Shown here: positions 15,380 through 23,385 of the stretch, one piece after another
Numbering within the stretch: the first letter of the stretch is position 1
Layout of the letters: each line of letters begins with the position of its first letter
IMG/VR virus record: IMGVR_UViG_3300045136_000222
Location: 1 to 46,443 of that record
DNA: 46,443 nucleotides
Source: a virus
Reading direction: 5' to 3' (one strand)
Notes under the pieces: model-generated
Database searches by the model: none
Told to the model about the DNA's origin: nothing
The model's input: the letters and a program-made list of their open reading frames with translations, nothing else
Made by a program: the position numbers and the translations under genes

Positions 15380-16297
15380 CTACCACGCCCATGAAGGTAA
15401 ACCAACAGGTTGAATTTCTCTTGAGTAGCCGTACCAATTGTTAGTTTTAAGACAGGTAGCGTAAACTTCTAAATTCTTTTTGTATTCTTCACGACCTTTA
15501 TCTATTGCGGCTTCTTGTAAGTAATAGACGCCGATTTCATAGGGCGGAGTTTTTTCAATGACCACAAAAACAAAAGTATTAAAGTTTTTGCCTGTTAATT
15601 CATTTAAGCCATCTAGATAAAATGCGGCTTGCACATGGTAGCGGTGATTTGCAATCATTTTTTCAAATTCTTTTAAGCTAGCATTTGCCGCAGTTTTTAC
15701 ATCAATAACTATTCCATCGTCTCTAATAAAATCAACCTTACCTTTGCATAAAACATCATATTCAGAATTGTGCCATATTATTGAAAGTTCAGGAGTTCCT
15801 ACAAAACCTTCCTTACAGATAGGGTGATTTTTAACTTTTTCGCACATCTCTTCAATCATTGTATATTCTTCATGAGTTAGAATAATTTTATTTTCATTTT
15901 CTTTTTGAAAACTCTCTAAAACCACGTCCCAAACTATTGCATCTTTATCATTTTGTAAAACTAAATCAATTAATTCTTTCTTTTGAGCATTGTTCTTGAA
16001 TTTAACGCCTAATCTAGTTAAATGTTCTTTTAAATCTTGGTTAGTTGCTAAAACGTTCCCGAAATCATCAATTTTTGGAGTTTTCGTGTATTTAACTTTA
16101 AATTTATCAGGTTCTAGTAACGCTTGATGAAGTAATCTACCAAATTCCATAGCTTTAGTTGGCTCGGGTTGTCTACCTAGTATAAATCTATCGTAGTAGT
16201 GTGCTGGGGATTGATTGATTAAGTCAAGACCGCTTTTTGAAATTGCTTTGATTGAAAAGTATTGATCGTCATCTAACTTAAAAATACCTAGTTCCAT
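15380..16297 (-). CDS. RecE-like exonuclease, PD-(D/E)XK fold
   Basis: The 305-residue protein has the pattern of exodeoxyribonuclease VIII-type phage nucleases. It shows ISKSGLDLINQSPAHYYD and FGRLLHQALLEPDKF near the N-terminus, then the active site KGKVDFIRDDGIVIDVKTA (Asp, then D-x-K) near 190-205, and HRYHVQAAFYLDG. A helix-extension-helix SAP-like insert is possible at 80-115. It should degrade one strand from DNA ends to create single strands for the annealing protein encoded downstream. The leader carries GTGAGGCAATACTT, a variant of the leader shared by the 5750 and 6375 genes. Confidence 0.8.
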   Translation of the reverse strand: MELGIFKLDDDQYFSIKAISKSGLDLINQSPAHYYDRFILGRQPEPTKAMEFGRLLHQALLEPDKFKVKYTKTPKIDDFGNVLATNQDLKEHLTRLGVKFKNNAQKKELIDLVLQNDKDAIVWDVVLESFQKENENKIILTHEEYTMIEEMCEKVKNHPICKEGFVGTPELSIIWHNSEYDVLCKGKVDFIRDDGIVIDVKTAANASLKEFEKMIANHRYHVQAAFYLDGLNELTGKNFNTFVFVVIEKTPPYEIGVYYLQEAAIDKGREEYKKNLEVYATCLKTNNWYGYSREIQPVGLPSWAW

Positions 16298-16390: not shown

Positions 16391-16708
16391 ATGCCTAAAA
16401 ATAAAAATCATTTAAAAAATCATAATAAATTTGAATTATACGCGGAGCTAAAAAAAGAAATTACAAAAAATCTTGAAATAATTAAAATTGATATTTATAA
16501 AGACGAACGCCTTTTTTATTTGTGCGACCAGCTAGCTTATCGTTTAGCTAATTTATTTTGTGAAAAATTAAGTCTTGAAATAATTGACATAAATGTTTTT
16601 AATGAAATTATAAAACTTCCGCATGATTTGGTAACATTTATTACTACAAAAGACTACCGCGACAATCTAGATTATGAATACACAACAACCTTCACAAGAT
16701 TTAAATAA
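16391..16708 (+). CDS. Protein of unknown function heading the deazaguanine operon
   Basis: The 105-residue protein is basic at its start and otherwise helical (LYAELKKEITKNLEIIKIDIY, then CDQLAYRLANLFCEKLSLEIID). No domain is recognised. It has no SD; the leaderless-type promoter ends six bases before it. It overlaps the DpdA-like gene by 35 bases, which implies coupled expression and possibly a shared function in base modification. This link is by position only. Confidence 0.5.
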   Translation: MPKNKNHLKNHNKFELYAELKKEITKNLEIIKIDIYKDERLFYLCDQLAYRLANLFCEKLSLEIIDINVFNEIIKLPHDLVTFITTKDYRDNLDYEYTTTFTRFK

Positions 16709-17597
16709 TAAGTCAAAACTAAACATTCTTATATCATGGGTATATTTTGATAAAAGAACCTACCATCTACTTAAAAATTTAGAAAAAGGTAGTTATAGAC
16801 TTTTAATAGATAGTGGAGCTTTTACTTCTTGGACATTAGGCAAAAAAATTCAATTAAAAGATTATTTAAGATTTATAGATAGTATTTCGGATTTACGACC
16901 TTTTAATTATGCTCAATTAGATGTAATTGGTGATTCTAAAGCTACTTATAAAAATTTAAAAGAAATGCATAGATTAGGATATAAAGACACATTACCTATT
17001 TTTACAAGAGGTGAATCTTTATCTAGATTAGATGAATTATATTCTTATAATGATTATCTAATGCTAGGAGGAGTAGCTAAAGGTATAGGTAACCTAAAAT
17101 ACATAAAATGGTTTCTAAATAATAATAAAGGTAGAAAATTACATATACTTGGTTGTTCTGAAATTAACATAATTAAGTATTATAAACCGACATCTGTAGA
17201 TAGTAGTTTAATGATTTTACCTTTTAGATATAATAATATCTATATCTATAAAGGTGATGGTAAAATAAAATCATATCAATTAAAAAAAATTTTATCTAAT
17301 AAAGAAAAATTTATAAAAGATAATTTAATCTATTTAAAAAATCTAGGTTTTAGTAATACCGAAATAAATTATTTAAGAAGTAATGATGCTTATATTTATC
17401 ATGGAGAACTAAAAAATTTTGACTCAATAAATTACAAAAGTTTTTGTTACATAGTTTCAATGGCGAGCATTTTTAGATACATGATTGATATTGAAAAAAA
17501 AAATAATACTATCTATTATTTGTCTTTAACTACAAGCGTTCTTGAAATAGTTATAAATTATTTTAAGATATTCTATAATAAAGGTATAATAAAATAA
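16674..17597 (+). CDS. dpdA: DpdA-like DNA guanine transglycosylase
   Basis: The 307-residue protein resembles phage DpdA proteins, relatives of tRNA-guanine transglycosylase that act on DNA. Visible blocks are RLLIDSGAFTSW (Asp46), FNYAQLDVIGD (Asp83), TLPIFTRGE, YLMLGGVAKG, LHILGCSEI and TSVDSSLM, matching the TIM-barrel active-site strands of the family. It should cut the glycosidic bond of guanine in DNA and insert a 7-deazaguanine such as preQ0. It is followed by queC, two ParB-like genes, and opposite-strand folE, queE and queD. The gene is notably AT-rich. tRNA-type TGT is unlikely because the zinc site of TGT is absent. Confidence 0.8.
   Translation: MNTQQPSQDLNNKSKLNILISWVYFDKRTYHLLKNLEKGSYRLLIDSGAFTSWTLGKKIQLKDYLRFIDSISDLRPFNYAQLDVIGDSKATYKNLKEMHRLGYKDTLPIFTRGESLSRLDELYSYNDYLMLGGVAKGIGNLKYIKWFLNNNKGRKLHILGCSEINIIKYYKPTSVDSSLMILPFRYNNIYIYKGDGKIKSYQLKKILSNKEKFIKDNLIYLKNLGFSNTEINYLRSNDAYIYHGELKNFDSINYKSFCYIVSMASIFRYMIDIEKKNNTIYYLSLTTSVLEIVINYFKIFYNKGIIK
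17584..17590 (+). promoter_or_regulatory. GTATAAT box for queC
   Basis: The TATAAT ends at 17590, eight bases before the queC ATG at 17599, with no SD. It overlaps the 3' end of the DpdA-like gene. The same box and spacing precede several other genes here. Confidence 0.45.
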
Positions 17598-17598
17598 T

Positions 17599-18261
17599 AT
17601 GAAACGAGTAATAATTTTATCAGGTGGTTTAGATTCTACAACCGCACTTGCTTATTATATTGATACACAAAATAAAAAAGATATTACTACAATAACATTT
17701 AATTATGGTTCAAAACATAATACGCAAGAAAATAATGCGGCTAAAAAAATAGCAAATTATTATGGTGTAAAGAATACGATCATAAATTTAGATTTTATAA
17801 ATAAACTTTTTAAAAGTAATCTATTAAAAAAAGGAGGTAAAATTCCTTTTGGTCATTATGCTGATAAAACAATGAAAAAAACTGTCGTTCCTTTTCGTAA
17901 CGGCATTATGTTATCAATAGCTTCTGGCTATTGTGAGTCTATTGGTTTTGATAGCATTGTTCTTGGCAATCATTCTGGGGACCATTTTATTTATCTAGAT
18001 TGCAGAACAAGTTTTTCAAAGCCAATGAGTGAAGCTATATTTCAAGGCACTGATAGACATATAATTGTAGAAAGACCTTTTGAAATGATGACTAAAACTG
18101 ATATTGTAAAACTTGGCTCAAAACTTAAAGTTCCGTATGAGTTAACCTATTCATGTTATAATGGTGAAAAAATACATTGCGGTAAATGTGGTACTTGTTA
18201 TGAAAGAAAAGAAGCTTTTAGAGATGCTAGTGTAAAAGATCCTACTATCTATCAACAATAG
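17599..18261 (+). CDS. queC: QueC, 7-cyano-7-deazaguanine (preQ0) synthase
   Basis: The 220-residue protein converts 7-carboxy-7-deazaguanine to preQ0 with ATP and ammonia. The PP-loop ATP site is LSGGLDSTTAL (residues 7-17). The zinc site uses four cysteines in YSCYNGEKIHCGKCGTCYERK. Between them lie FRNGIMLSIASGYCESIG and the PFEMMTKTDIVKLG segment expected of QueC. Length matches the family. It gives the last precursor step before the DpdA-like enzyme encoded just upstream. A shift to ADG or archaeosine chemistry by a QueC variant is possible but not visible. Confidence 0.93.
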   Translation: MKRVIILSGGLDSTTALAYYIDTQNKKDITTITFNYGSKHNTQENNAAKKIANYYGVKNTIINLDFINKLFKSNLLKKGGKIPFGHYADKTMKKTVVPFRNGIMLSIASGYCESIGFDSIVLGNHSGDHFIYLDCRTSFSKPMSEAIFQGTDRHIIVERPFEMMTKTDIVKLGSKLKVPYELTYSCYNGEKIHCGKCGTCYERKEAFRDASVKDPTIYQQ

Positions 18262-18264
18262 TTT

Positions 18265-18271
18265 GTATAAT
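18265..18271 (+). promoter_or_regulatory. GTATAAT box for the ParB-like pair
   Basis: The box TTTGTATAAT ends at 18271, seven bases before the ATG at 18279, with no SD in between. It fits the leaderless spacing seen for queC, queD and others. Confidence 0.45.
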
Positions 18272-18278
18272 TTCAGAT

Positions 18279-18842
18279 ATGAATAATTTAGAAATTAAAT
18301 TTATTAAACTAGAAGCATTAAAACCATTTAGTAAAAATCCTAGAAAAAATGAAAAAGCAATACAACCTGTAATGAAATCTATTCAAGAGTTTGGTTTTAA
18401 TGTTCCTATATTAGTAAGCAAAGATTTTGAAATAATTGCAGGTCATACTCGTTTTGAGGCCGCAAAAAAACTTGGTTTAATTAAAGTACCAGTTATTATT
18501 CTAGAACATCTAGATGAAATTAAAAAAATTGCTTTTAATATAGCTGATAATAAAATAATAGAATACTCAAGATGGGATTATGATAAGTTAAAAGAAGTTT
18601 TTGTAGAATTAAAAAATGAAGATTATCCATTAGAAAATACCTTATTTCAAATAAATGAAGTAGAAACATTTTTGACTTCATGGAGTGTAGAAATTGATAA
18701 ATTAAAACCTAATGATTATGAAGACTCACCTATTCAAGAAAAAATAATAATAACCTGTAATAAAAGTGACTTTCAAGAATTAAGAGATTTTATTGAATTA
18801 AAATTAAAAGAAACAAATTTTGAAGGTATTAAAATTTTATGA
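18279..18842 (+). CDS. ParB/Srx-fold protein 1 in the deazaguanine island
   Basis: The 187-residue protein has a ParB-like N-terminal domain: IKFIKLEALKPFSKNPR, SIQEFGFNVPILV, and the ParB box IIAGHTRFEAAKKLG (about 52-66), followed by IADNKIIEYSRWDYD. The C-terminal 60 residues are less conserved. In the bacterial dpd cluster, DpdB carries a ParB/Srx domain and works with DpdA, so a similar partner role is attractive. Phage DpdA enzymes are thought to work without DpdB, and such ParB proteins also occur beside phage methyltransferases, so this is inference. It overlaps its paralogue by four bases. Confidence 0.75.
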   Translation: MNNLEIKFIKLEALKPFSKNPRKNEKAIQPVMKSIQEFGFNVPILVSKDFEIIAGHTRFEAAKKLGLIKVPVIILEHLDEIKKIAFNIADNKIIEYSRWDYDKLKEVFVELKNEDYPLENTLFQINEVETFLTSWSVEIDKLKPNDYEDSPIQEKIIITCNKSDFQELRDFIELKLKETNFEGIKIL

Positions 18843-19405
18843 AAATTAAGTATCTAAAAATTTCAGAAATAAAACCTTATGAAAAAAATCCGCGATTAAA
18901 CAACGATACAATAGAATTACTTATTAAATCAATTAAAGAATATGGCTTTAATGTTCCAATTTTAATAGATGAAAAAAACATAATTCTTGCCGGACATGCA
19001 CGCTATAAAGCCGCTCAAAAATTAGAAATAGATAAAGTACCTACAATTAAAATTACTCATCTAAACGAGTCTCAAAAAAAAGCATTTAGAATTGCCGATA
19101 ACAAATCTAGTGAGTATGCAGAATGGGATTATAAATTACTTAAAGACGTAATTGAAGATATTACAATAAATAATTTTGACATTGAAAATATATTTTTTAA
19201 AAATTTTGAAATAGATGATATAATTTTTAATTCAGAAATAGAATTAAATAACGAAATAGAAAATAATAATAAACAAGAAATAAGTCATGAACAACAATTA
19301 GCTAAAATCACAATAATTTGTCCAGCTACTTCTAAAAATGATGTAATTCAATTTTTAAATAATATTCTAAAACAAGTATCATTTACTAATGTTAATATAA
19401 AATAA
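18839..19405 (+). CDS. ParB/Srx-fold protein 2, paralogue of the upstream gene
   Basis: The 188-residue protein repeats its upstream neighbour closely over the first 105 residues: IKYLKISEIKPYEKNPR, SIKEYGFNVPILI, IILAGHARYKAAQKLE, IADNKSSEYAEWDYKLLKD. About half of the positions match by eye, so it is a tandem duplication that has diverged. The C-terminal region has an Asn/Glu-rich linker and then a short domain. ATG overlaps the upstream stop (ATGA). It ends one base from the convergent folE gene. A heterodimer with its paralogue is possible. Confidence 0.75.
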   Translation: MKIKYLKISEIKPYEKNPRLNNDTIELLIKSIKEYGFNVPILIDEKNIILAGHARYKAAQKLEIDKVPTIKITHLNESQKKAFRIADNKSSEYAEWDYKLLKDVIEDITINNFDIENIFFKNFEIDDIIFNSEIELNNEIENNNKQEISHEQQLAKITIICPATSKNDVIQFLNNILKQVSFTNVNIK

Positions 19406-19957
19406 CTAAAAATTTAAAATTTTAGATAGTTCATTTTTATAGTATCTTGAATTAAAAATTCCTGTAAAAGCATAAGTTTTCATAACTGCATTTTGTTTAT
19501 TTATACCTCTTGAGATCATACAAAAATGTTTTGCTTCAATAACTACTGCTACGCCTTTAGGTTTTAAGCACTCATTTAAAGCTTCTGCAATTTCTTTTGT
19601 TAATCTTTCTTGTATTTGCAATCTTCTTGAAAAACATTCAACTAATCTGGCAATTTTTGATAAACCTACAATTCTTTTGTTTGGTAAATAAGCTACGTGA
19701 GCTTTACCAAAGAAAGGTAACATATGATGCTCACATGTAGAAAACAATTCAATATCTTTTAATAAAATAATTTCTTTATATCCTTCTGCTTTAAAACTTG
19801 TTTTTAAAATATCTTTATAATTTTGTGAGTAACCTTTATAAAGTTCACTAAATGATTTAATTACTCTTTTAGGAGTATCAATTAAGCCTTCACGATTAGG
19901 GTTTTCACCGATAAATTTCAAAATTTTTCTTATTAAATCTTCACAATTATTTTTCAT
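19406..19957 (-). CDS. folE: GTP cyclohydrolase I
   Basis: The 183-residue protein converts GTP to dihydroneopterin triphosphate, the first step of preQ0 synthesis. Key blocks are [17 protein letters not shown], the zinc site [51 protein letters not shown] and [11 protein letters not shown]. The start at 19957 is chosen because AAGGAG lies at proper distance and overlaps the queE stop; a start at 19984 would add nine residues not typical of the family. It is the last gene of queD-queE-folE. Having its own FolE makes the phage independent of host pterin supply. Confidence 0.93.
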
Positions 19958-19961
19958 TAGT

Positions 19962-20669
19962 CTAAACTCCTTTTTTATTCCCATAAGCTCTAATGTGAAA
20001 TCTATCTGTTACTAGGTAATTAGTATTTTTTTTAACAAGTTCAAAACATTTTTTTAAATTTTTGTTTAAAATTCTACCATTATAACCTTGTGGCATAAGG
20101 TAAATTTTATAGTTATCTTTTTTATTTAGTTGTAAAACAATTGAGTTAATTTCATTTATATCACTTAATTCATTTACTACAAACTTGAATTGTAAAAAAT
20201 TATAATAATCAATAAACTTGTTTAGTGTGTCTATATCAATTGTTTTTTTTTCATTATTGCTGGATTTTAATTTTGGCGATAGTGAAATAAAATCAGCTGT
20301 AACCTCATAAAAAATCGTTCCGTTAGTTTCTATTGTTATAAATTTATTTTTCTCTTTTAATTTATTGCATAGTTCTTTTAATGCATCTTTTTGCAAAAAC
20401 GGCTCGCCGCCTGTAATAACTACATGATAAAAGTTAAACTTTTCAAACTTTTCTACCTCTTTTAAAACTTCCTCTATCGTTTTTAGATTTTTTTCTGGAT
20501 TAAAAGATGAATAAGGTGTATCACAAATGTATTCTTTACCTTGCAAAAACCATTTACATCTTAAATTACAACCACTAAATCTAATAAAAACACTTGGAGT
20601 TCCTATGTAAAAACCTTCGCCTTGTATTGTATAGAAGATGCCGTTATTAACTAAATTTACTTTTTGCAT
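19962..20669 (-). CDS. queE: QueE, 7-carboxy-7-deazaguanine synthase (radical SAM)
   Basis: The 235-residue protein has QueE landmarks: [26 protein letters not shown] at residues 13-38 and CDTPYSSF at 49-56, then [19 protein letters not shown] and LSPKLKSS. It converts 6-carboxytetrahydropterin to 7-carboxy-7-deazaguanine. The iron-sulfur cysteines are C34, C38 and C49. The usual CxxxCxxC spacing is broken by eight extra residues (FLQGKEYI) between the second and third cysteine, while all three cysteines remain. E. coli QueE also has an expanded motif, so activity is plausible. It overlaps queD by 13 bases and lies just before folE. Confidence 0.9.
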
Positions 20670-21223
20670 GTTAGTTTTCTGTCGTCGTATTCTACTATAC
20701 CAATATTCTTTTTATAGTTTTTAAGCACTTGCATTAAAGGACTTTGTTTTAATAGTTTTTTTTCTTTAAAACTCAAGCCTTCACACTCAACAAAGCAATT
20801 TATTGTTTCATGCAAGACAATCTTTTCAAGTTTTAAGTTTTTATCACCCAAAAGAAAATTTACCATAAAAAACATTTCTTTTGCTATGTTCTCGGCTGTA
20901 GGGTTACAATAACCTTCTTTATCAACTAGATTCATAATATAGGTTTTAGAATTTAATCTTTTAAGCGTATCAATTAAAACAACATCTTTAGGATTTACTA
21001 AAAAGCCATGATCAAAAACATCGTCTATAAACTGCATTGCAACTCGTTTAATTTCTTTAAAATCAATTGCGTAGCCAATTTCTAGTTCACTTTTGTAATT
21101 AAAATGAAGTTCGTACTTGTACTCATGACCATGTACGTTAAAACATTTAAACCTTTCGTTCATTACTCTATGACCAGCGTCAAACTTGCCGACTCTTACC
21201 ACTTTATTTCTCTTCTTAATCAT
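20657..21223 (-). CDS. queD: QueD, 6-carboxy-5,6,7,8-tetrahydropterin synthase
   Basis: The 188-residue protein turns dihydroneopterin triphosphate into 6-carboxytetrahydropterin. Zinc-binding histidines are in FDAGHRV and VHGHEYK, with the catalytic cysteine in KCFNVHGH. AIDFKEIKR, FDHGFLVN, NPTAENIAKE and LHETINCFVECEG complete the family pattern. It is longer than bacterial QueD (about 120 residues) because of inserts around DTLKRLNSKTYIMN. The gene is first in the queD-queE-folE operon. It has no SD, and a good promoter ends six bases from its ATG. Confidence 0.92.
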   Translation of the reverse strand: MIKKRNKVVRVGKFDAGHRVMNERFKCFNVHGHEYKYELHFNYKSELEIGYAIDFKEIKRVAMQFIDDVFDHGFLVNPKDVVLIDTLKRLNSKTYIMNLVDKEGYCNPTAENIAKEMFFMVNFLLGDKNLKLEKIVLHETINCFVECEGLSFKEKKLLKQSPLMQVLKNYKKNIGIVEYDDRKLTCKK

Positions 21224-21229
21224 TTTTTA

Positions 21230-21259
21230 ATTATACTTTTCTTTTTTTACTCATTTCAA
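21230..21259 (-). promoter_or_regulatory. Promoter of the queD-queE-folE operon, leaderless
   Basis: On the minus strand TTGAAA (21259-21254), an 18-base spacer and TATAAT (21235-21230) form a near-consensus promoter. Only six A/T bases lie between TATAAT and the queD ATG (21223), so transcription should start at or next to the start codon. No SD is present. Confidence 0.65.
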
Positions 21260-21322
21260 ATTTTATTTTTCATTTATTTTTAAATTCTTTCAATTCTTTG
21301 AAATCTATTTAGAACTCTAGCC

Positions 21323-21545
21323 AAGTAAATATCTTTATAATTCATTTAAGTGTGATTACTTAATAGTTTACTTATTTAGTTTACTAATTTTTGGACAATT
21401 TCCAGAGCGAGCGTAGATCGCTTGCTGTAATGAGTTTATAATAAGTAGATTTCTTTTAAAAAAAAAGTAAATAATAGAATTAAGTAAATAAGTAAATAAT
21501 TAAGTATTTAGTAGTAAGTAAAAGATACAAGAATAGAATAATTAA
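21323..21545. repeat. AT-rich iteron-like repeats, candidate replication origin
   Basis: AAGTAAAT occurs at 21323, 21465, 21482 and 21490 (the last two in tandem), with near-copies around 21505-21545. A 13-bp unit TAGTTTACTTATT is tandemly repeated at 21364-21389 with one change. Between the two groups is a small GC-rich hairpin (AGCGA/TCGCT, about 21405-21424). The array lies in the only large gene-free region, between divergent operons and just before the replication genes, as expected for an origin. Function is inferred. Confidence 0.4.
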
Positions 21546-21570
21546 GTAACACAAAAATTATTCTAGTCTT

Positions 21571-22080
21571 GGTCGCCAGAAAAGCAAAAAAAATAAAATT
21601 GCTTTTCCAATGTACTTCTTAATATGGACGCCTCGCGCGGCTAACTGGTCAGAGCATTATCCTCTAGATTAACGGACTAGAGCTTTTGCTCACGTTAAGA
21701 TTTTAGTTGCTTTAATGATTTTACACATTCAAATCTTCTTGCAAGCAATCCGAAATGAATGTATCATTAAAACAACGGCGAAGGTACTGGGCAGTCGGCG
21801 CGCGAGCCTTCTCAAGTCGTAGCCCCTAGAAGCGAATTTATCGCCGCAGTAACTACGAGTCCCGACCTTCAGCCACAGACTTACCGAGGTTGACAATTTC
21901 CGTCGCTTCGGTGAGTCGCCTGCCGTCAGTAGTGGTAAGTCGTGATGGGCACACTTACCTGTATCGTGCTTACTTTTTTTGAGCAAGCCGTTCTCGGCTA
22001 ATTGCCGACACACGAGCCAATGCCCGCTCGTGCTTTGAGATGTACTGCCACCTCTTTAACTGCGAATTTAGCAGTAATTA
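21571..22080. ncRNA. Candidate large structured non-coding RNA
   Basis: This island is GC-rich (101 of 180 bases G or C in 21781-21960) amid DNA near 20-30% GC, and has no credible gene. It is full of stems: 21662-21667/21677-21682; 21706-21719/21763-21776 (13 pairs, one mismatch); 21725-21731/21756-21762; 21776-21781/21841-21846; 21878-21885/21934-21941; 21986-21990/21995-21999; 22011-22017/22026-22032; 22059-22063/22071-22075. CGTAG at 21818 can pair with CTACG at 21853, crossing one stem as a pseudoknot. Large ornate RNAs such as GOLLD and ROOL occur in phages and have this character, but no family is identified. Strand is not settled; a tRNA D-arm-like stretch favours plus. Confidence 0.5.
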
Positions 22081-22132
22081 TTTAATAAAATACGCTTAAA
22101 AAAAAATCAAGTGCTCAAAAAAATTTTTTTAT

Positions 22133-22159
22133 TGTTTTTATAAAATTATAAGCTATAAG
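22133..22159 (+). promoter_or_regulatory. Promoter-like sequence for the replication operon
   Basis: TTGTTT (22133-22138) and TATAAG (22154-22159) precede the ATG at 22167, which has no SD. The -10 box ends seven bases before the start codon, the leaderless spacing seen at other genes. The 15-base spacer is short. Confidence 0.4.
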
Positions 22160-22166
22160 TAGCTTC

Positions 22167-22811
22167 ATGCATATTTCTGTTTTATCGTCTATAGTAGATA
22201 CAGAAAACTTTAAATTTTTTTGTAAAACTTTATCAGTAACAAAAGAAACTGCGCTTTGGATACTCTTTTCAATTTATAAGTTTTGTAAAGAAAATAATGC
22301 TCATTTTATCACTCAAGATTTTTTAAAAACAATCAATTCAAAATTTAATGAAAAAAAATTATTTAAAGCGTTAATTCAAGCTGGTTTTATAATTGAATTT
22401 AAAAATAAGTTTTATGTGTGCGGTGTTAAACATAGATACTTTAGACCAAGAAAAATTAAGATTAAACAAGATGATTTATTTGAACCTGTGCAATTTTTTT
22501 ATGAACTATGGCAAAACCACAAACATGAAAAACTACCAGATATAAAACTAATCAATGACCAAAGAAAAAAAGCTATCAAAGCAAGATGGCAAGAAATGCC
22601 AGATACGCACTATTGGAAGCAGGTTCTATTAAAAATCAATGAAAGTGATTTTCTACTAGGTAATAACAAGCGTGGTTGGGTCGCTAACTTTGATTTCTTT
22701 ATAAGACCAATGACTCACATTAAAGTCATGGAAGGTTTTTATTCTAACTATAATAATAAAATGAAAAATAATAATTTATTTTTGCTAAAAAAAGTTTATG
22801 AACAAAAATGA
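22167..22811 (+). CDS. Replication initiation-like protein
   Basis: The 214-residue protein begins with a winged-helix-like domain (about 1-90). Its C-terminal half has a pattern common in phage replication initiators and replisome organisers: QRKKAIKARWQEM, WKQVLLKINESDFLLG, NKRGWVANFDFFIRPMTHIKVMEGFY. It likely binds the origin region directly upstream (21323-21545) and recruits the helicase loader encoded next. It overlaps that gene by 14 bases. DNA-binding specificity cannot be read. Confidence 0.65.
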   Translation: MHISVLSSIVDTENFKFFCKTLSVTKETALWILFSIYKFCKENNAHFITQDFLKTINSKFNEKKLFKALIQAGFIIEFKNKFYVCGVKHRYFRPRKIKIKQDDLFEPVQFFYELWQNHKHEKLPDIKLINDQRKKAIKARWQEMPDTHYWKQVLLKINESDFLLGNNKRGWVANFDFFIRPMTHIKVMEGFYSNYNNKMKNNNLFLLKKVYEQK

Positions 22812-23385
22812 AAAGACAAAAAAACTAAAAACTATGCTTATATTACTTGCCGAGTACTATGGTGAGCAACTTACAGAAGCACGGCTTGAACTTTTTGCTC
22901 AAGATTTAATTCAATTTGATTTAAATGATGTTAAAAAAGCAATAGATGTTTACCGCCTTGACCATAACAATAAGAAAATGCCGCTTCCTGCACAACTAAT
23001 TCAAATCATAAATGGAGTATTTATTGATAACAAAACAGAAGCAACTTTAATTGCCAACAATATCATTGCGGCTATCAATAAGTATGGCTATTATTGGGAC
23101 GAAGGTTTGTTTATGAATGGTCAGACTACTTATCAAGTGCATAAAGAAGGTAAAACTTTTTACTTTAAAACTTTTAAAGAAGCACTACTATGTGAATTAG
23201 GTGAAATAGGAGCTTTGATTGTTCAAAAAATAGGTTGGAAAAATTTATGTGCAGACGATAGTGATAAAACTTTTAGAATTGCTCAATTGCGAGATTTAGT
23301 TAGTTACTTTTTAGCAAAAAATCAAAGAAATCAAAGTTTAAACTTAATAGAAAACAATAAAACTTTAATGTTAGAAAAAAAATAA
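22798..23385 (+). CDS. Helicase-loader-like protein
   Basis: The 195-residue protein has an N-terminal helical domain, ILLAEYYGEQLTEARLELFAQDL and then VKKAIDVYRLDHNNKKMPLPAQLI, resembling the phage helicase loader/inhibitor (G39P-like) domain, which is built from similar helices. The rest is not recognised. It overlaps the initiator-like gene and precedes HNH and SSB genes, as in many initiator-loader-SSB modules. No AAA+ motif is present, so it is not a DnaC-type ATPase. No phage helicase or polymerase gene is visible in the window, so host enzymes are probably recruited. Confidence 0.55.
   Translation: MNKNEKTKKLKTMLILLAEYYGEQLTEARLELFAQDLIQFDLNDVKKAIDVYRLDHNNKKMPLPAQLIQIINGVFIDNKTEATLIANNIIAAINKYGYYWDEGLFMNGQTTYQVHKEGKTFYFKTFKEALLCELGEIGALIVQKIGWKNLCADDSDKTFRIAQLRDLVSYFLAKNQRNQSLNLIENNKTLMLEKK

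Follow-up and report, generated by a model that had tools for sequence, protein, structure and literature searches.

Gene content and context of the island

The window (the whole stretch of DNA analysed here, 46,443 bases) contains a GC-rich island between two divergent operons and upstream of both. The locus comprises the following features:

20657..21223, minus strand: queD-like gene (PTPS family), reading away from the island
21230..21259, minus strand: sigma-70-like promoter (TTGAAA-18-TATAAT, 11/12) before queD, with the island on its other side
21571..22080, strand open with minus slightly favoured: the island, GC-rich, gene-free and hairpin-dense, a candidate structured RNA
22167..22811, plus strand: gene for a replication initiation protein/DnaD-like helicase loader (family match), the next gene on the right

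Left of the island, the minus strand carries queD, queE and folE; further left are queC, a gene for a DpdA-like transglycosylase (PHROG 887) and two ParB-like genes. Names on this side come from family-library tests for queD, one ParB-like gene and the transglycosylase, and from the sequence for queC, queE and folE. We take the combination of a DpdA-like transglycosylase with que and folE genes to be a 7-deazaguanine DNA-modification module. Right of the replication-initiation gene are HNH, SSB and a further ParB-like gene. There are no tRNA genes across the 46-kb window. The gap from the island to the start of queD is ∼350 bp. Promoter-like sites around the island and queD occur at chance frequency, and the sequence offers no clear candidate for a promoter or terminator of the island's own.

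The AT-rich segment 21300–21560 carries long imperfect inverted repeats (21336–21381 with 21482–21527), and a GC-rich 8-bp hairpin lies inside this pair at ∼21404–21425. The plus-strand fold of 21401–21570 has a z-score of −4.7. The segment could be an origin or a terminator region.

Base composition and coding potential

The GC content of the island (21571–22080) is 46% and that of its core (21777–22034) is 56%, the same value as an earlier reading made from the sequence alone had given; whether measured over 150, 300 or 500 bp, the island is the GC maximum of the window. That sequence-only reading had put the surroundings at mostly 17–30% GC, which holds for the immediate AT-rich flanks (20% in 21224–21570 and 17% in 22081–22166); the mean of the whole 46,443-base virus record is 31%. 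A GC peak within an AT-rich genome is a usual mark of structured RNA genes.

All six reading frames of the island are broken and none looks coding. The longest ORF (94 a.a., GTG start, minus strand, 21729–22013) scores −0.78 per codon, as compared with +0.29 ± 0.07 for the genes of the phage, its third-position GC is 56% against 21% for phage genes, and it has no match in PHROGs. The earlier description of about 500 bases without a credible gene is thus upheld.

Excess of hairpins and of folding stability

Repeats and hairpins were compared with dinucleotide-preserving shuffles. The island has 13 pairs of exact inverted 7-mers at a distance of up to 80 bases, as compared with 2.4 ± 2.2 in shuffled sequences, and none of 100 shuffles reaches 13. 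Non-overlapping local hairpins number 10 on the minus strand (5.9 ± 1.2 in shuffles) and nine on the plus strand (5.7 ± 1.3), with a shuffle maximum of eight. Local hairpin density is above chance, and the island is hairpin-dense, as the sequence-only reading had it. Direct repeats (8-mers and 9-mers) inside the island are at shuffle level, so the island is not an iteron array.

The fold of the whole island has z-scores of −5.1 to −5.9 on the plus strand and −6.3 to −6.9 on the minus strand, and the two halves reach −6.6 and −7.5 on the minus strand. For 170-nt windows elsewhere in the phage the mean is about −0.1 (sd 1.2); within the island, windows of this size range from −0.4 to −3.8 and are unevenly exceptional, so the fold excess is clearest at the scale of domains. 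The GC contrast between stems and loops and the A-rich loops were considered as support for an RNA and dropped, as shuffles match both. G–U pairs make up 7–8% of pairs in the island against 12–14% in shuffles, and are rarer on both strands; a hairpin or palindrome array acting at the DNA level would therefore fit as well.

The hairpin excess, the lack of a coding signal and the GC contrast together make the island a real, unusual, structured non-coding element.

Predicted helices and the favoured strand

The predicted helices, from the high-coordinate end, are listed below (energies in kcal/mol).

22059..22075, minus: H1, 5-bp hairpin ACUGC/GCAGU
22037..22054, minus: H2, 6-bp hairpin whose pairing is complete on minus alone (−6.6; −1.0 on plus)
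22010..22033, minus: H3, 8-bp hairpin GCACGAGC/GCUCGUGU
21994..22008, minus: H4, 5-bp hairpin UCGGC/GCCGA
21965..21990, minus: H5, 9-bp hairpin with an A-rich loop; one G–U, which is an A–C mismatch on plus
21934..21959, minus: H6, 10-bp hairpin with a one-base bulge; strands about equal
21878..21917, no strand assigned: H7, 16 bp on plus (−22.2); on minus, 13 pairs interrupted by mismatches (−12.5)
21817..21858, minus: H8, 15-bp hairpin with internal loops; minus favoured (−19.3 vs −10.4 on plus)
21777..21874, minus: helix B, 21874–21865 with 21785–21777, 9 bp with one bulge, enclosing H8
21632..21806, minus: helix A, 21806–21799 with 21639–21632, 8 bp (−14), crossing helix B
21706..21776, minus: H9, long hairpin of 14 bp plus inner helices (−24.4 vs −15.9 on plus)
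21652..21691, minus: H10, two-part hairpin, CUCUAG/CUAGAG inside GAGCA/UGCUC
21578..21608, minus: H11, A/U-rich hairpin of 10 bp at the low-coordinate end of the island
21528..21571, no strand assigned: H12, AT-rich inverted repeat of 16 nt immediately beyond the edge of the GC island, a possible weak terminator for the minus strand

Four hairpins (H2, H5, H8 and H9) pair better on the minus strand, where G–U pairs take the place of A–C mismatches, and the summed hairpin energy is −139 on minus against −121 on plus. We lean slightly towards minus as the strand that would be transcribed. The best argument for plus is H7, which is far stronger there, and the strand preferences of the two halves of the island conflict.

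Helices A and B cross, with their arms nearly adjoining, and in the model this is a plausible H-type pseudoknot geometry. A long-range stem as strong as helix A is present in 38 of 100 shuffles, however, so that the pseudoknot announced in the sequence-only reading, which requires this helix, is unproven and does not exceed chance. A perfect 12-base complement (22112–22123 with 21974–21985; TGCTCAAAAAAA/TTTTTTTGAGCA) joins sequence upstream of the island, in the minus sense, with the loop arm of H5; it is possibly an alternative pairing, or a chance match owing to an A run.

An element acting as DNA is an unlikely reading of these helices, though the best placed of the alternatives: the hairpins would form a cruciform array which, with the adjoining AT-rich inverted repeats (21336–21527), would be a replication origin, or a region regulating it, at which the initiator of the neighbouring gene acts. 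The neighbouring gene does match phage replication-initiation and DnaD-like families, the flank 21224–21570 combines 20% GC with long AT inverted repeats and a fold excess of its own, and the stems are nearly pure Watson–Crick and strong on both strands. But the island is not enriched in the direct repeats expected of iterons, H2, H8 and H9 pair fully on one strand only, and a hairpin array of 500 bp is unusual for a theta-type origin.

Searches against known RNA families

Scanned with cmscan against the 4227 families of Rfam, the island has no match at gathering thresholds, and at E ≤ 10 the hits are at chance level. The earlier statement that no family could be matched stands. The conserved 3′ region of GOLLD was sought within the same scan and was not found. 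ROOL (RF03087) searched alone was negative, though its controls also gave no signal, and RF01998 (a group II intron fragment) was negative against the island. There is no Rfam model match to self-splicing introns, RNase P, tmRNA or riboswitches, and ARAGORN finds no tmRNA. Judged by these searches, the island can be assigned to none of GOLLD, ROOL, OLE, introns, RNase P, tmRNA or riboswitches.

Relatives of the phage and the cargo module

Comparison of the island by blastn with INPHARED phages and PLSDB plasmids gave chance matches only. No relatives were obtained through the adjacent replication protein or the portal, and the terminase yielded mainly distant ones. The capsid search gave nine relatives and later two more close ones and one distant one, with capsids 53–66% identical. 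The records L154–L162, L188 and L189 form an apparent IMG/VR phage family, defined by major capsids of this identity, that has no close cultured relative in INPHARED; the phage itself likewise has no near relative in that collection.

Relatives reached through the capsid or the terminase lack the island: by DNA similarity it is absent from about a dozen, whose records may be fragments, and it is known as a single copy. Rfam searches of ∼400 kb of relatives, in gathering and permissive modes, returned one tRNA only. Two single-sequence covariance models (R1 and R2) match the window only, such models having little reach, and a degenerate 16-base pattern of the core occurs in 38 contigs, all unrelated. 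The non-coding gaps of the relatives (e.g. G004:16441–17045 and G001:64976–66189) show no similarity to the island. The GC-rich end of one contig, L002 (61% GC), was rejected as a counterpart, being a short tandem repeat with no fold excess: at the end of this AT-rich relative (17608–17710), a GC-rich unit of about CCCGGTGTCCCAGATAGTG is repeated in tandem in ∼five copies. A non-coding segment of another relative (G004:C1:16741–17041, in L175) has fold z-scores of about −4 to −4.5 on both strands and repeated AATATCTTCAA-type arms, and is unrelated to the island.

Six relatives are records of 54–84 kb that have structural genes in common with the window, and in all six queD and the replication initiator are undetected. 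In one of them (G001), the HNH homologue comes almost immediately after a homologue of the nuclease encoded at 15380–16297 of the window. On both grounds the stretch of ∼16.4–23.4 kb that holds the island is, as far as the compared records indicate, a variable cargo module outside the core of the phage family. Its genes (16391–23385: the DpdA-like transglycosylase, queC, two ParB-like genes, folE, queE, queD and the replication initiator) suggest cargo for 7-deazaguanine DNA modification.

The occurrence of the island in this phage only, within a module missing from the large relatives, would also suit a functionless remnant or fragment of a foreign insert (a mobile element, a host structured RNA or an assembly artefact). 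We give this reading slightly less weight than the DNA-level element and consider it improbable: the island matches no plasmid, phage or RNA family, its flanks have no clear direct repeats, and decay would erode perfect stems. A long cis-regulatory leader, either on minus for queD–queE–folE, where it might sense a 7-deazaguanine, or on plus for the replication operon, would suit a position upstream of both divergent operons and is the least probable of the alternatives, given the consensus promoter-like sequence for queD between island and gene, the ∼350 bp that separate the two, the lack of a riboswitch family match in Rfam and the size of preQ1 riboswitches, which are much smaller than the island.

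A candidate phage RNA gene

The explanation we favour, with somewhat better than even confidence, is that the island is a phage-specific, independently transcribed gene for a structured non-coding RNA. The phage would produce a free-standing RNA of ∼500 nt during infection, transcribed from the divergent intergenic region and slightly more likely leftwards (minus), with a predicted start near 22080 and a predicted end near the hairpins at 21608–21528. Since queD has a promoter-like sequence of its own downstream of the island, the RNA would act in trans and not as a leader and, in the manner of other large RNAs that phages make in abundance, could be a compact scaffold or RNP. We would guess at an accessory RNA that is stable and abundant, of the kind represented by GOLLD, ROOL and the ICP1 RNA.

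The sequence-only reading had likened the island to GOLLD and ROOL. The large structured non-coding element survives from that proposal, carried by the hairpin excess, the non-coding frames and the GC contrast; the likeness itself extends to size, ornateness and phage context, with no Rfam match, and the island may be placed as a candidate in a loose class of GOLLD, ROOL and ICP1 RNAs in this sense only. Tentatively, and with less than even confidence, it may be the first known representative of a hitherto undescribed class of large structured RNAs in phages, unrelated to GOLLD, ROOL, OLE or any Rfam family and travelling as cargo next to a module for DNA hypermodification. Neither a new class nor a mechanism can be claimed from a single copy, which offers a defined target but is as yet too little to test as a class. 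Phages repeatedly carry large structured RNAs, among them GOLLD and ROOL, which assemble into RNA cages with no known purpose. A further unrelated RNA in an uncultured phage family, if real, would show that the repertoire extends beyond the families described so far and that such RNAs behave as exchangeable cargo.

Comparison with known systems

ROOL RNAs (RF03087; the Rfam model has 574 positions) resemble the island in length, phage context and the many hairpins; env-120, for example, is 659 nt long (PMC12286853). The island differs in having no Rfam match at E ≤ 10, no tRNA island and no recognisable counterpart of the conserved ROOL pseudoknots; ROOL is commonly, though not obligatorily, near phage tRNA genes, whereas the window has none. 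GOLLD RNAs, many of which exceed 800 nt and which have a conserved 3′ region (PMC12286853), are like the island large, ornate, phage-borne and of no known function, but their 3′ region is unmatched in the island by the all-family cmscan. Both GOLLD and ROOL RNAs form cages (PMC12286853), the GOLLD cage being homo-oligomeric.

Staphylococcus phage K encodes two long intergenic RNAs, lnc001 and lnc002 (PMC9241854). Like the island they are long, intergenic, phage-encoded and without a known function; unlike it they lie near tRNA genes and are supported by RNA-seq, and no phage record shares detectable DNA sequence with the island. In the Vibrio phage ICP1, which has no tRNAs, the most abundant transcript is an ∼800-nt RNA from an ∼1-kb gap without ORFs (PMC7567579). 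The ICP1 RNA differs from the island in its RNA-seq support and its length of ∼800 nt, and comparison with phage records gave none similar in sequence to the island. The ICP1 RNA (in the gp139–gp140 gap) and the island nevertheless have in common that they have no assigned function, are intergenic, are ORF-free for hundreds of bases and belong to phages without tRNAs.
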